A stretch of DNA of 64,000 bases from assembly GCF_024362485.1 (NCBI RefSeq), contig NZ_CP101456.1, positions 1,922,001-1,986,000 on the forward strand, read 5' to 3'. Position 1 is the first letter of the stretch. The number at the start of each line of letters is the position of its first letter. This stretch comes from Natronobeatus ordinarius (lineage in GTDB: Archaea > Halobacteriota > Halobacteria > Halobacteriales > Natrialbaceae). This document shows positions 5,040 to 54,663 of this stretch, piece by piece. Position numbers and translations under genes: made by a program. The notes below the pieces were generated by a model. It saw only the letters and a list, made by a program, of their open reading frames with translations. It was not told the DNA's origin and made no database searches.

Positions 5040-5210
5040 GGCTGCATCGCCGGTTCGTGGCCACACCGCTGAGTCACTGTCACATCGTCGGTTCACGGCC
5101 ACACCGCTGGGTCACTGTCACATCGTCGGTTCACGGCCACACCGCCGGCTCACAGCCCAGCCGCCGGTTCACAGCCCAGCCGCCGGTTCACTTTCACTCC
5201 GCACCGGTTC
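5040..5210. repeat. Nine-unit 19-bp tandem repeat array upstream of uvrA
   Basis: Contiguous 19-bp units begin at 5040, 5059, 5078, 5097, 5116, 5135, 5154, 5173 and 5192. Most end in GGTTCAC, GGGTCAC or GGCTCAC. Units 2 and 4 are identical (5078-5096 and 5116-5134), units 1 and 3 differ by one base, and units 6 and 7 are identical. The first and last units are degenerate. The array occupies most of the gap between the divergent ABC operon and uvrA and stops 44 bp before the uvrA start. Nineteen is not a multiple of three, so this is not a protein repeat; open frames across it are a side effect of composition. Confidence 0.85.
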
Positions 5211-21807: not shown

Positions 21808-21856
21808 TGGCTCTCCCTCGGCTGACGAGGGCCGCGCATCCGCGCGACCTCGAGTT

Positions 21857-21930
21857 CCTGTGACGACTCCCTCGATCGAACGTCGTCGGCCAGTTCTCCT
21901 GTGACGACTCCCTCGATCGAACGTCGTCGG
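21857..21930. repeat. Direct repeat of 33 bp between livF and livJ
   Basis: Positions 21857-21889 and 21898-21930 are identical over 33 bp (beginning CCTGTGACGACTCCCTCGAT), giving a 41-bp period. They occupy the convergent gap between livF and livJ, where bidirectional termination is expected. No open frame explains them. A recent tandem duplication is the simplest reading. Confidence 0.85.
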
Positions 21931-21970
21931 ACAGTTCCACGAGAGGTCCCGACGAATGTCGGCTCCCGAA

Positions 21971-23224
21971 TCAGTCGATCAGCCCCTCGAACTCCTCGGA
22001 TGGGATCGTCTCGAGCGATTCGGTTTCGCCGTCGCTGATCTGCAAGATTGCGAACTGGTTCAGGTTCTCGACGTTCTCGGTCATCTCGATCGGGCTCGAG
22101 GCGCCGATGTACTTGATCTCCTCGCCGTCGTCGAGGAGCTCGACTGCCCGATCGAACTCGCCGACGGTTACCTCCTCACCCGGTTCGTTGGCGACGTCGA
22201 GGATGTTCGCCGCGATCGCCTCTCCCGTCGGCTCGCCGCCAGCGTGCATCGCCAGCGCCTGGAGGAAGAGTGCGTCGTAGGAGTGTGGAGCGAACAGCGT
22301 GACCTCGTCGCGGGGGAACGTTTCTTCGAACGCCTCCGCGCCGACGGTCTCTTCGGGGTCGGGCGTCGTCAGGTAGAACCCCTCGAGCTGGTCCGAGAGC
22401 CCGGCGATGAACTCGGGGTCGTTCAGCCCCTCGCTGAGGACCCACTCGCCGCCGTAGCCCCCCTCGTCCCACTGGATCATGATCGTCTCCCCCTCTCCGG
22501 GGTAGCCGATGAACCCGATGGCGTCCGGATCGGGCTCGAACAGCGCGTCGAGCGTGGACGTGAAGTCGGTCGCTTCGGGATCGTAGCCCACGGACGACAC
22601 CGTCTCGCCCTCGAAGTTCTCCTCCGCGACCGACGCGAGGCCCTCCCCGTACGGGTTGTCGATGTACAGGAAGCCGGCGGTGTCTGCCTCGAGGTAGTCG
22701 TCCATCGTCCGAGCCATCACGACGCCCTGCTGGGCGTCGTTGGGCGCCGTCCGGCCAAAGTACTTCAGGTCGCCGACCCACCCCAGGTCCGCGAAGATGG
22801 GGCTCGTACTCGCGGGGCTAACCATCATCACGCGATCGTCGGCGACGACCTCGGCGATCGGCGCCGAGACGCCGCTCGAGGCCGCGCCGACGAAGCCGAC
22901 GATGTTCTGTTCTGCGACGAGGCCCGCGTATCGGTCGACGCCCGCCTCCGGACGCGTTTCGCTGTCCCGGTTGTGGATCGTGATCTCGGCGCCAAGGGGT
23001 CCGCCAGCCTCGTTCGCGTGCTCGACCGCGAGGTTCACGGCGTCTTCCATGCCGGCACCGTAGGCCTCGAGTTCGCCCGTGATCGGGAGAATCGATCCCA
23101 TCGGAATGTCCTGCTGGAGGCCGCGAACGGCTCCCACGTAGCCCGGTCCGCCCGCCAGTCCGATCCCGGCGGCCACACCAGTCACCTTCAGGTACGTGCG
23201 TCGTGTAGTGCGCTTCTCTCCCAT
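21971..23224 (-). CDS. livJ: ABC transporter substrate-binding protein (Leu/Ile/Val-binding family)
   Basis: 417 residues from the ATG at 23224, giving a Tat signal (MGEKRTTRRTYLKVTGVAAG). The mature part is a type I periplasmic-binding fold: MGSILPITGELEAYGAGMED, LAVEHANEAGGPLGAEITI, IVGFVGAASSGVSAPIAEVV, DRVMMVSPASTSP, DAIGFIGYPGEGETIMIQWD and TLFAPHSYDALFLQALAMHA. No lipobox Cys is obvious; it may stay attached through an uncleaved signal or be released. It is convergent with livHMGF rather than part of that operon, so its expression is separately controlled. A 7-bp inverted repeat sits directly before the start. Confidence 0.9.
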   Translation of the reverse strand: MGEKRTTRRTYLKVTGVAAGIGLAGGPGYVGAVRGLQQDIPMGSILPITGELEAYGAGMEDAVNLAVEHANEAGGPLGAEITIHNRDSETRPEAGVDRYAGLVAEQNIVGFVGAASSGVSAPIAEVVADDRVMMVSPASTSPIFADLGWVGDLKYFGRTAPNDAQQGVVMARTMDDYLEADTAGFLYIDNPYGEGLASVAEENFEGETVSSVGYDPEATDFTSTLDALFEPDPDAIGFIGYPGEGETIMIQWDEGGYGGEWVLSEGLNDPEFIAGLSDQLEGFYLTTPDPEETVGAEAFEETFPRDEVTLFAPHSYDALFLQALAMHAGGEPTGEAIAANILDVANEPGEEVTVGEFDRAVELLDDGEEIKYIGASSPIEMTENVENLNQFAILQISDGETESLETIPSEEFEGLID

Positions 23225-23225
23225 G

Positions 23226-23270
23226 ACGCTAGCTAGCACTGTACAATAGGGCAAAAAACGTGTCTAGCGT
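23226..23270 (-). promoter_or_regulatory. Inverted repeat in the livJ promoter
   Basis: ACGCTAG (23226-23232) and CTAGCGT (23264-23270) are perfect inverted arms, starting one base upstream of the livJ start codon. The AT-rich stretch between them (GTACAATAGGGCAAAAAACG on the + strand) could hold the TATA element. This is a plausible operator for substrate-dependent control. The remaining gap to 23460 has no clear gene. Confidence 0.4.
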
Positions 23271-24804: not shown

Positions 24805-24938
24805 GCCCGTTTCTGGGCGAGTTCCCGTGATAAACCTGCGGAAGGCGGCCGTTCAGTCGTGACGGCCGATCGACACGGGTCTCGAGGTTCGAACGTCAAC
24901 CGCGAGCTTTTAGCAGGTCGGTTTGCTAGACCGTGTGT

Positions 24939-26105
24939 ATGAGCGACGTACGAGTAGCCGGCGTCGGCCTCACGGAGTTCGGGAGTAGTCCCGAGCGAAC
25001 GGGGCGTGACCTCTTCGCGGAGGCGAGTATCGAGGCGTTCGAGGATGCAGGCGTTCCGCGTGAGGACGTCGAGGCGCTCTTCTACGGCAACTTCATGGGC
25101 GAACTGGCCGAACACCAGGGCCACCAGGGACCGCTGATGGCCGAGGCGGCGGGCGTGCACGCCCCCGCGACGCGGCTCGAGTCAGCCTGCGCGTCTGGCG
25201 GGGTGGCCGTCCGCGAGGCAGTCAGCCGAATCCGCAATGGCGAGCACGACGTCGTCCTCGTCGGCGGCGCCGAACGCATGACCAACCTCGGCACCGGCGG
25301 CGCGACCGAAGCGCTCGCCATCGCCGCCGACGACCTCTGGGAGGTTCGCGCGGGCGTGACCTTCCCCGGTGCGTACGCGCTGATGGCCCAGGCGTACTTC
25401 GAGGAGTTCGGCGGCGAGCGCGAGGACCTCGCCCACGTCGCCGTCAAGAACCACGAGAACGCCGTCCCGAACGAGAAGGCCCAGTATCGGCGCGCGATCG
25501 AGGTCGACGACGTCCTCGAGGCGCCGATGGTTTCTGCACCACTCGGCCTCTACGACGCCTGTCCAATCTCCGACGGCGCCGCAGCGGTCGTCCTCACGAG
25601 CGAGGCCTACGCCGCCGAACACGACCTCGAGGCCCCCGTCGCAATCACCGGCTCGGGACAGGGCGGCGACCGGATCGCCCTTCAGGACCGAACGCATCTC
25701 TCGCAGTCGCCTGCAGCCCGCGAGGCGGGCGCGGAGGCGTACGCCGACGCCGGGATCAGTGCCGCGGACGTCGAGGTCGCTGAGGTCCACGACTGCTTCA
25801 CGATCGCCGAGGTACTCGCTCTCGAGGCGCTGGACCTCGCGCCCGTCGGCGAGGGGATCACGGCCGCTCGAGACGGGCTGACGACCGCCGACGGCGACCT
25901 CCCGGTGAACCTCTCGGGCGGGCTGAAAGCCAAGGGTCACCCCGTCGGCGCGACCGGTGCGGCGCAGGTCGCCGAGCTGACGGCACTGCTCCGCGGGGAC
26001 CACCCCAACAGCGACCACGTCGACGACGCGACGGTCGGCCTGACGCACAACGCGGGTGGGACGGTCGCGAGTGCGGTCGTTCACGTACTGGAGGTGGTCG
26101 CATGA
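24939..26105 (+). CDS. Thiolase family protein (acyl-CoA acetyltransferase)
   Basis: 388 residues from the ATG at 24939, with a TTTTAG box about 27 bp upstream. Nucleophile Cys84 in ESACASGGVAVREA, HDCFTIAEVLALE and the C-terminal NLSGGLKAKGHPVGATGAAQ with the catalytic His identify the SCP-x-like archaeal thiolase family. In archaea such thiolases partner with a DUF35 OB-fold protein, and this gene is followed by one (26212-26595). Likely acetoacetyl-CoA formation for the mevalonate pathway or beta-oxidation; which one is uncertain. The stop overlaps a micro-ORF by ATGA. Confidence 0.9.
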   Translation: MSDVRVAGVGLTEFGSSPERTGRDLFAEASIEAFEDAGVPREDVEALFYGNFMGELAEHQGHQGPLMAEAAGVHAPATRLESACASGGVAVREAVSRIRNGEHDVVLVGGAERMTNLGTGGATEALAIAADDLWEVRAGVTFPGAYALMAQAYFEEFGGEREDLAHVAVKNHENAVPNEKAQYRRAIEVDDVLEAPMVSAPLGLYDACPISDGAAAVVLTSEAYAAEHDLEAPVAITGSGQGGDRIALQDRTHLSQSPAAREAGAEAYADAGISAADVEVAEVHDCFTIAEVLALEALDLAPVGEGITAARDGLTTADGDLPVNLSGGLKAKGHPVGATGAAQVAELTALLRGDHPNSDHVDDATVGLTHNAGGTVASAVVHVLEVVA

Positions 26106-26215
26106 ACGGAGTGAATGCGATTACGCCAGAGCTTTGCTCTGGAGGTGGTCGCATGAGCGAACGCCGTGAGCGAATGCGATTACGCCAGAGCTTCGCTCTG
26201 GAGGTGAGAGAATGA
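26090..26215 (+). repeat. Duplicated hairpin/ribosome-binding-site linker between thiolase and DUF35 genes
   Basis: GGAGGTGGTCGCATGA occurs at 26090 and 26141, and a variant GGAGGTGAGAGAATGA at 26200. The 22-bp block starting GAATGCGATTACGCCAGAGC occurs at 26113-26134 and 26172-26193. Each block ends in a 7-bp-stem hairpin, CCAGAGC-TTT-GCTCTGG (26126-26142) and CCAGAGC-TTC-GCTCTGG (26185-26201), whose right arm contains the first two bases of GGAGGT. The hairpins could partly hide each Shine-Dalgarno site. Confidence 0.8.
26102..26215 (+). CDS. Micro-ORF coupling thiolase to DUF35 gene
   Basis: 37 residues, beginning MNGVNAITPELCSGGGRMSE. Its ATG overlaps the thiolase stop (ATGA) and its own TGA overlaps the ATG of the DUF35 gene (ATGA). 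The composition of the second half (ERRERMRLRQSFALEVRE) is basic and unlike haloarchaeal proteins, so it is more likely a by-product of the local duplication or a translational relay than a functional peptide. Confidence 0.3.
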   Translation: MNGVNAITPELCSGGGRMSERRERMRLRQSFALEVRE

Positions 26216-26595
26216 GCGACGCACGAGACGCCGGCTACGACGACTGGCTCGAGGCCGTCGAGGAGGGCGAGCCCTACTATCTCGAGTGTCCCGAGGGGCA
26301 CGGCTCGCTGCCGCCCCGTCGCGTCTGTCCCGACTGTGGCGCGACCGACCTCGAGGAGACGCCGCTGCCGGCGGCGGGCGAAATCGCGACGTTCACGATC
26401 ACGCACGTTCCGACGCCATCGTTCGCCGACGACGCGCCCTACGTCGTCGGCGTCGCCGACTTCGGCCCCGTGCGGATCACCGGCCAGGTCGTCGGGGTCG
26501 ATCCGACGGCCGTCGAGACGGGGACGGCCGTCGAACTCGAGGTTGCGACGTCGGAGACGACGGGCGATCGAGTGCTGGCGCTCCGACCGCGGTAG
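26212..26595 (+). CDS. Zn-ribbon OB-fold protein (DUF35)
   Basis: 127 residues. The N-terminal zinc ribbon has two pairs, an incomplete one at LECPEGHGSLPPRR (Cys plus His) and CPDCGATDL. The C-terminal OB fold follows (ATFTITHVPTPSFADDAPY, VGVADFGPVRITGQVVG). DUF35 proteins bridge thiolase and HMG-CoA synthase in archaeal complexes that channel acetoacetyl-CoA; here the thiolase is directly upstream. HMG-CoA synthase is not in the window. The start at 26212 is set by overlap with the micro-ORF stop and the GGAGGTG site 12 bp before. Confidence 0.88.
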   Translation: MSDARDAGYDDWLEAVEEGEPYYLECPEGHGSLPPRRVCPDCGATDLEETPLPAAGEIATFTITHVPTPSFADDAPYVVGVADFGPVRITGQVVGVDPTAVETGTAVELEVATSETTGDRVLALRPR

Positions 26596-54135: not shown

Positions 54136-54663
54136 GTTTCGCTTGATGTGTTCCGTGAGGTTCTTTTGTTGCTGAGTTTCTGCGATGCAAACCACCATAT
54201 TTCGAAGACGGTCTTTGTTATCTGTAGGTTGGAAAATCGAATGGAACGACTACCCAGATTCGACGACTAACGTCGAACGCAATGTATCGAACGGCGCGAA
54301 AATCCTTCTGGAGCCCACGGCTCGAGTCCGCTCGAGGCCACTCACTGCAGCCGGTTTCTCCGGAACGCGATCGATGCGTTAGGTGCCCCTATCGTCGTTT
54401 TAGCGGGCGTTTATGTCGGGTGGAAGAACGGAGTAGTACGATCCTGTTGGTTAGAGACGAGGTCCTGTGCCAGAAGCCGTCCTATGGTGGTTAGAGACGA
54501 GGTCCTGTGCCAGAAGCCGTCCTATGGAAATTCACCGACGAGTGGGAGACGCGATGACGATGGTCGGCCTGGTCGAAGAGGAGTTACGGAGAACGTTGCG
54601 CACAGAACGCCATCGGTGCTCGAGTTCGTCGGTCACAGAGATTCGAGGCAAAAGCCCACGACG
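54136..54663. other. Non-coding region with perfect tandem duplication
   Basis: 528 bp. The 5' end near 54136-54240 probably contains the promoter or leader of the repeat-protein gene. The rest has no convincing gene; open frames on the + strand are short and change register over the duplication at 54448-54527. No similarity to a known element is recognised. Confidence 0.5.
54448..54527. repeat. Perfect 40-bp tandem duplication
   Basis: Positions 54448-54487 and 54488-54527 are identical over 40 bp, starting TGGTTAGAGACGAGGTCCTG and ending CCGTCCTATGG. There is no gap between copies. It resembles a recent slippage or recombination duplication in a non-coding stretch. The repeat contains no inverted arms. 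Confidence 0.9.

Follow-up and report, generated by a model that had tools for sequence, protein, structure and literature searches.

The window analysed here comprises 64,000 nt of the Natronobeatus ordinarius genome (contig NZ_CP101456.1, positions 1,922,001-1,986,000). On its plus strand, which carries both genes and all linker features described below, the open reading frame list places a gene for a thiolase-domain protein at 24939-26105 (Pfam Thiolase_N/Thiolase_C_1; NCBIfam PRK06064 above its cut-off; a longer alternative start is GTG at 24933) and, downstream, a gene for a DUF35/OB-fold protein at 26212-26595 (Pfam OB_ChsH2_C). The thiolase stop codon TGA (26103-26105) lies within the first ATGA of the linker between them. 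Three copies of a Shine-Dalgarno motif followed by RTGA were read from the sequence, GGAGGTGGTCGCATGA at 26090-26105 and again at 26141-26156, and GGAGGTGAGAGAATGA with a spacer diverged to AGAGA at 26200-26215; they stand 51 and 59 nt apart. A first-pass annotation of this DNA had described these three GGAGGTG-ATGA units, two hairpins with 7-bp stems that draw part of the Shine-Dalgarno motif into the stem, and a 37-codon reading frame from the thiolase stop to the DUF35 start. All of these features were found again. The micro-ORF at 26102-26215 overlaps both the thiolase stop and the DUF35 start by an ATGA and was also recovered by the chain walk introduced below (chain 37, offset 110).

Measured from ATGA to ATGA, the linker divides into unit 1 of 51 nt (26102-26152; covariance model E 2.2e-16) and unit 2 of 59 nt (26153-26211; 89.9 bits). 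Each unit spans the stretch between two successive Shine-Dalgarno-RTGA junctions and has two covarying hairpins. Unit 1 is of a frame-0 type and runs on into unit 2, which restores the frame; the sum of 110 nt equals 2 modulo 3. As unit 1 measures 51 nt, a simple one-unit micro-ORF is broken here and a relay would pass through the fused frame only. The two known hairpins, termed H2, were exact in palindrome search and agreed with covariation: CCAGAGC-TTT-GCTCTGG in unit 1 (26126-26142) and CCAGAGC-TTC-GCTCTGG in unit 2 (26185-26201; also seen in the fold), their 3' arms including the leading GG of the GGAGG that comes next, in Shine-Dalgarno copies 2 and 3, respectively. A further hairpin per unit, H1, went beyond the first-pass annotation and emerged from covariation in 40 units and a separate set of 38. 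It pairs TCGCAT with ATGCGA over the start codon, in unit 1 at 26098-26103 with 26115-26120 (whole hairpin 26098-26120) and in unit 2 at 26149-26154 with 26174-26179 (26149-26179), there with a GC/GC mini-stem as cap and with agreement of the fold.

The repeat arrangement of the linker is not due to chance. In the complete 4.2-Mb genome there are 26 instances of GGAGGTG-N5-RTGA (reversed control 0), and 3 of these 26 copies fall inside 126 bp at the linker, while the CCAGAGC-NNN-GCTCTGG palindrome was not found again in the 4.2-Mb genome with up to one mismatch allowed. The fold of the linker region was more stable than 200 of 200 shuffles (z -4.6). Searching with the 135-bp linker yielded one other good match in the same genome, of 73% identity, located between a paralogous thiolase and a paralogous DUF35 gene. 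This second linker, also new compared to the first-pass annotation, consists of two 50-nt units, each with a 17-codon micro-ORF and GTGA overlaps. A private duplication limited to the window was ruled out, as units are present at this paralogous pair and in many further genomes; the window linker consists of two tandem units of a haloarchaeal element of 50/59 nt that is dispersed over many loci. Elsewhere in the same genome, three long palindromes (L234, L235, L243; C1:1476024, 1476487, 3842208) end in GGTTCAAATCCC-like arms and share the cap GCGAACGNNGTGAGC with the relay units. Other tandem repeats of the window include four copies with a 38-bp period (5045-5197), a perfect 40-bp duplication (54448-54527) and a 41-bp duplication with 97% matches (21856-21937), the latter just below the end of a minus-strand ORF (21971-23254).

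Spread over haloarchaea and number of units

A pattern search with a free gap returned 49 places in 26 of the 392 genomes of the order, with 0 throughout in the reversed control. The periods were 50, 51, 53, 59, 60 and 65, and 47 of the 49 equal 2 modulo 3. This frame statistic is the least biased one because the gap could take any length; the loci added afterwards came from a model trained on units of this kind. Using a covariance model built from the alignment of 40 distinct units, matches were obtained in 148 of 392 haloarchaeal genomes and 53 of 95 genera (E<=1e-3, 12 candidates per genome scored), the weaker ones at this threshold including relatives away from junctions. In a sample of the phylum (196 genomes) 7 genomes matched at E<=1e-5, all of them from the order of the window. 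As the units are mutually related, the counts given here and below represent non-independent trials. No match to 4,227 Rfam families was found for eight unit-bearing loci at E<=0.1, and a known RNA family was ruled out on this basis. Viral cargo was dropped as a reading based on a single narrow exact pattern without a match in viral contigs; viruses are still possible carriers. In two plasmid records RefSeq has no annotated feature in the unit stretch, which is left as a short gap between genes; the element would therefore also be of relevance for annotation.

In total, 107 loci (99 unique junctions) were assigned to 23 gene-pair clusters. Thiolase-DUF35 pairs account for 57 of the 107 loci and other gene pairs for 50, which rules out a thiolase-specific feature; the element is not specific to the thiolase and DUF35 enzymes. 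Pairs identified by Pfam were the halves of glycine dehydrogenase (GcvP), the subunits of the electron-transfer flavoprotein (ETF), an ABC ATPase with a permease, a COX1 terminal oxidase subunit with a small protein, DUF58 with a transglutaminase, an Ssb-like protein with its neighbour, and two GFO/IDH/MocA oxidoreductases. Further genes, which we take from reading their sequences, in place of a family search, to be LeuC-LeuD, ribosomal protein L13, HPr-like and V-ATPase F-like, also carry units. In a LeuC-LeuD linker (L197, genome G035) a different 83-nt insert with ATGA at both ends was seen, whose 28-codon frame, by reading, stops at the LeuD start; other types of elements may follow the same relay rule. 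In another genome (L199, G036) a GAGCGAAGCGA palindrome was seemingly inserted in frame right after the LeuD start and would lengthen the protein.

The same repeat was found at unrelated gene junctions for which relatives with empty sites exist, as documented for thiolase-DUF35 and LeuC-LeuD. Of 48 named haloarchaeal thiolase-DUF35 loci 47 were measured: 37 overlap by 4 nt, 4 overlap by 1 nt and 6 carry units. The empty sites, 41 of the 47 junctions, are consequently all -4 or -1 overlaps. LeuC-LeuD relatives without a unit likewise show mostly 4- or 1-nt overlaps, and eight unit-bearing loci are spaced by about 50-100 nt. The first-pass annotation had suggested checking relatives for one or two units; the number actually ranges from one to five per junction and varies between congeners. 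Five near-identical units were found at one locus (L085). Natribaculum breve carries 2, 2 and 3 units where N. luteum carries 1, 1 and 1 at orthologous junctions with flanks that are mostly 94-97% identical, and strain AArc-T1-2 has 2 units on the chromosome versus 1 at a nearly identical plasmid copy. Away from coupled junctions, a near-identical related two-hairpin palindrome was observed at L183, L184 and L185 (genomes G270 and G261, with 7 and 9 model matches, respectively, mostly weak). This palindrome possibly represents the parent family of the units.

The relay frame and the pairing are kept, the peptide is not

The reading frame was analysed by a chain walk from the upstream stop to an overlapping start, translating to the next stop and repeating this until the downstream gene was reached. 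The total offset modulo 3 was dropped in favour of this measure, because in arrays of separate micro-ORFs each unit, and not the sum, has to equal 2 modulo 3. The walk was complete in 105 of 107 loci; when the set was narrowed to unique junctions whose two flanking genes both look coding, it was complete in 82 of 82. Among the 82, 79 were linked via micro-ORFs with overlapping stop and start; in the other 3 the length of the insert is divisible by 3, and the insert directly extends the downstream protein in frame. Success in the controls was 53% for shuffled sequence of random length, 69% for shuffled sequence of the same length, 38% after a 1-nt deletion and 91% after a 2-nt deletion; the last of these yields frame-0 inserts. 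The null of 53% is high because frame-0 inserts also score as success; with such controls the strong contrast is therefore that of 79 relay to 3 direct cases with zero failures. Stop and start overlap by 4 or 1 nt at the unit junctions, and the relay micro-ORFs are mostly 15 to 24 codons long, longer in fused units, with 37 codons in the window. Units of 44, 50, 53, 59, 62, 65, 71 and 101 nt and fused totals of 110, 119, 161 and 170 nt all keep the relay frame. Frame-0 units of 51 or 60 nt sit in arrays that end with a frame-restoring unit, such as 51+59 in the window, 60+101 (L056), 60+59 (L120, L145), 60+50 (L170) and a whole chain of 170 nt (L129). A shortened 44-nt unit without H1 (L247:1573-1619, Halorussus aquaticus plasmid) lies between two ABC permease genes, where it forms a 15-codon relay and precedes a full unit.

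A check for coding signal flagged 17 of the 107 loci as non-coding-like, on account of the upstream ORF in 15 cases and of the downstream ORF in 2. A second walk from the nearest coding-like stop was complete in 12 of these 17, with one overlap of 14 nt at L131 and overlaps of 8 nt at L173. For the A+T-rich thiolase of L140 the rule found no coding-like stop, yet the locus was complete in the first walk. The remaining L166, L172, L174 and L181 were not completed by the second walk and are counted against the relay reading. A second harvest covered 75 of the 79 loci L110-L188 (four were already covered) and gave 78 hits, from which one per locus, i.e., 75, was taken; 13 hits that did not have both RTGAs were analysed separately. 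Five of the 13 showed a complete relay with micro-ORFs of 20-41 codons and 8 showed none, 2 of them inside a coding-like ORF and 6 with neither.

The encoded peptide, on the other hand, is not kept, as translation runs through an identical core in either of two frames, used by 21 and 24 of 45 units, with unrelated peptides as a result; a conserved micropeptide was ruled out on these grounds. Gain or loss of arm length and an H2 of 16 or 17 nt offset each other, and the stop still meets the next start.

Base pairing was evaluated in the 40 aligned units. For H1 (TCGCAT/ATGCGA), the GC/GC mini-stem and H2 together, 94.8% of the cells were paired and 62 cells carried double changes, compared to 17 in shuffled and 0-8 in slid controls. 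In the 38 further units, read without gaps, 89.3% were paired with 68 double changes versus 22, where it has to be considered that this set leans towards the model because it was found by the model. The base pairs covary beyond the controls, as expected for a conserved structured RNA element, and the pairing is therefore maintained; covariation says nothing about its role. Both copies of the TCGCAT-type stretch can in principle serve the H1 arm. Among the 10 of 40 units with differing copies, 9 have an arm that fits the upstream copy better and 0 have one that fits the downstream copy better, and a maintained fold with the downstream copy was rejected despite a nearly equal overall score. Since the arm tracks the upstream copy, the stretch encoding the last residues of the upstream gene is part of the structure that is maintained. 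When single units were folded thermodynamically, the downstream-copy pairing was often preferred. A further stem, GGUG/CGCC, which would cover the Shine-Dalgarno motif, was 99% paired and nearly invariant; it shares its CC with H2, which makes the two structures mutually exclusive. An excess of G-U over A-C, as pairing in RNA would be expected to produce, was clear in the first set (30 to 9) and weak in the second (33 to 23). This uneven excess makes an RNA rather than a DNA structure likely, though unproven.

A probable micro-ORF relay at coupled gene pairs and its alternatives

Two studies on Haloferax volcanii provide the framework for the interpretation. Downstream translation was strictly dependent on upstream translation, and Shine-Dalgarno motifs were not used at 5'-UTRs and had variable weight in reinitiation (PMC6728339); overlaps of -4 nt were by far the commonest, and coupling of native pairs was lost at a spacing of 22-23 nt (PMC10666635). 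RTGA overlaps with a Shine-Dalgarno motif in the upstream gene are common to the termination-reinitiation pairs described there (Huber et al., 2019; Huber et al., 2023) and to the units. Ordinary pairs, however, overlap directly, whereas the haloarchaeal units interpose one to five micro-ORFs. An insert of at least 50 nt should uncouple a pair, given the loss of coupling at 22-23 nt in Haloferax. We consider it probable (roughly 0.78) that the linker consists of tandem copies of a dispersed element that settled at stop/start overlaps of co-translated pairs, with the coupling kept by a micro-ORF relay. The start of each unit lies within an RTGA overlap, and its end supplies another Shine-Dalgarno-RTGA. 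A ribosome ending the thiolase would reinitiate at the micro-ORF and next at DUF35; with an RTGA at both ends the micro-ORF would restore the ribosome path, and an insertion that otherwise uncouples the pair would leave the genes coupled. The passage from thiolase via micro-ORF to DUF35 as proposed by the first-pass annotation is in this way strongly supported by sequence comparison, namely by the 82/82 chain, the two core frames and the frame-restoring arrays. Within this relay H1 would cover the start codon of the micro-ORF together with the spacer before it, and H2 would sequester part of the Shine-Dalgarno motif that follows. As a consequence of this coverage the two start sites should be accessible chiefly to ribosomes that come from the upstream gene, i.e., the hairpins would mask them. 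The first-pass annotation also proposed that the hairpins set the ratio of the two enzymes, which they may do. The element probably also moves as a unit.

The number of units might in addition act as a regulatory rheostat, in which each unit adds a reinitiation step and a hairpin pair, lowers the downstream enzyme stepwise, and is selected in number for the enzyme ratio. We regard this as possible but rather unlikely. The whole-unit differences between Natribaculum breve and N. luteum (2, 2, 3 versus 1, 1, 1) and between chromosome (2) and plasmid (1) of AArc-T1-2 would suit it, as would the share of thiolase-DUF35 pairs (57/107 loci) and the gene-pair specific reinitiation efficiency reported for Haloferax (PMC6728339). 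However, most relatives do without any unit (41 of 47 thiolase-DUF35 junctions), presence is independent of the gene pair, and the fast change in number resembles drift as much as tuning. A wider version sees a mobile archaeal family exploiting termination-reinitiation, with a throw-away micro-ORF, a fold opened by the upstream ribosome only, GGUG/CGCC versus H2 as a two-state gate, and unit gain or loss as evolvable stepwise control of subunit ratios. It is proposed tentatively and is, as a whole, rather unlikely.

Structured mRNA spacers, or REP-like hairpins for processing or stability with an incidental micro-ORF, are improbable. They would account for the strong covarying hairpins and for palindromic relatives outside junctions, some within ORFs, but leave the relay frame across lengths of 44-101 nt and fused totals of 110-170 nt as well as the 79 relay versus 3 direct cases unexplained. 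A start of DUF35 translation de novo at its own Shine-Dalgarno motif, the junction being a neutral tandem duplication, appears quite improbable. Tandem duplication clearly occurs, as in the five near-identical units of L085, but the same core at unrelated junctions indicates more than local duplication, and in Haloferax such motifs have no role in starting translation de novo at 5'-UTRs (PMC6728339). Functional small proteins are hardly credible: the frames are open without internal stops, but the core read in two frames gives unrelated peptides, and the 37-aa product has no Pfam or NCBIfam match and is unannotated in the RefSeq plasmid records.

The closest known counterparts of the relay element are the MIRUs of mycobacteria. 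MIRUs are about 50-100 bp in size and stand between adjacent operon genes as tandem repeats of variable number. We know of no description of a MIRU with two covarying start-masking hairpins or a two-frame peptide. A 2025 review (PMC12548453), which cites Supply et al. (1997), describes MIRUs as mobile repeats that insert at start codons, carry an internal ORF coupled at -4 nt to the gene there, and have a minimal effect on the expression of the gene at the site. With MIRUs the haloarchaeal units share the ORF that overlaps the neighbouring ORFs by 4 nt, the unrelated junctions and the variable tandem number. They differ in their taxon, all carriers examined being haloarchaea, and in their 50/59 nt, the two covarying hairpins, which would cover the start site and a portion of the Shine-Dalgarno motif that follows, and the two-frame peptide. 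The best reading is an archaeal insertion element that would preserve termination-reinitiation in the manner of MIRUs, with hairpins that would mask start sites; because the taxon differs, it is not filed as a MIRU. In the open-licence literature no archaeal counterpart of the mycobacterial MIRUs was found. Insertions that respect archaeal operon coupling imply strong selection for coupling at the gene pairs concerned. The loci offer natural constructs with 0 to 5 relays, two frames and matched empty sites, from which the number of reinitiation steps and the cost per step could be approached.

Rickettsia palindromic elements and other MITEs (PMC10969869) are likewise small palindromic repeats that are open when inserted in coding DNA. 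They fuse into the protein with a conserved peptide, whereas the haloarchaeal units lie between genes, end at a stop and do not keep the peptide; with their two-frame core they do not show the in-frame insertion of a conserved peptide typical of the Rickettsia elements. Two of the related palindromes from the second harvest (L178, L182) run in frame through coding-like ORFs of 791 and 564 codons and recall the Rickettsia palindromic elements.
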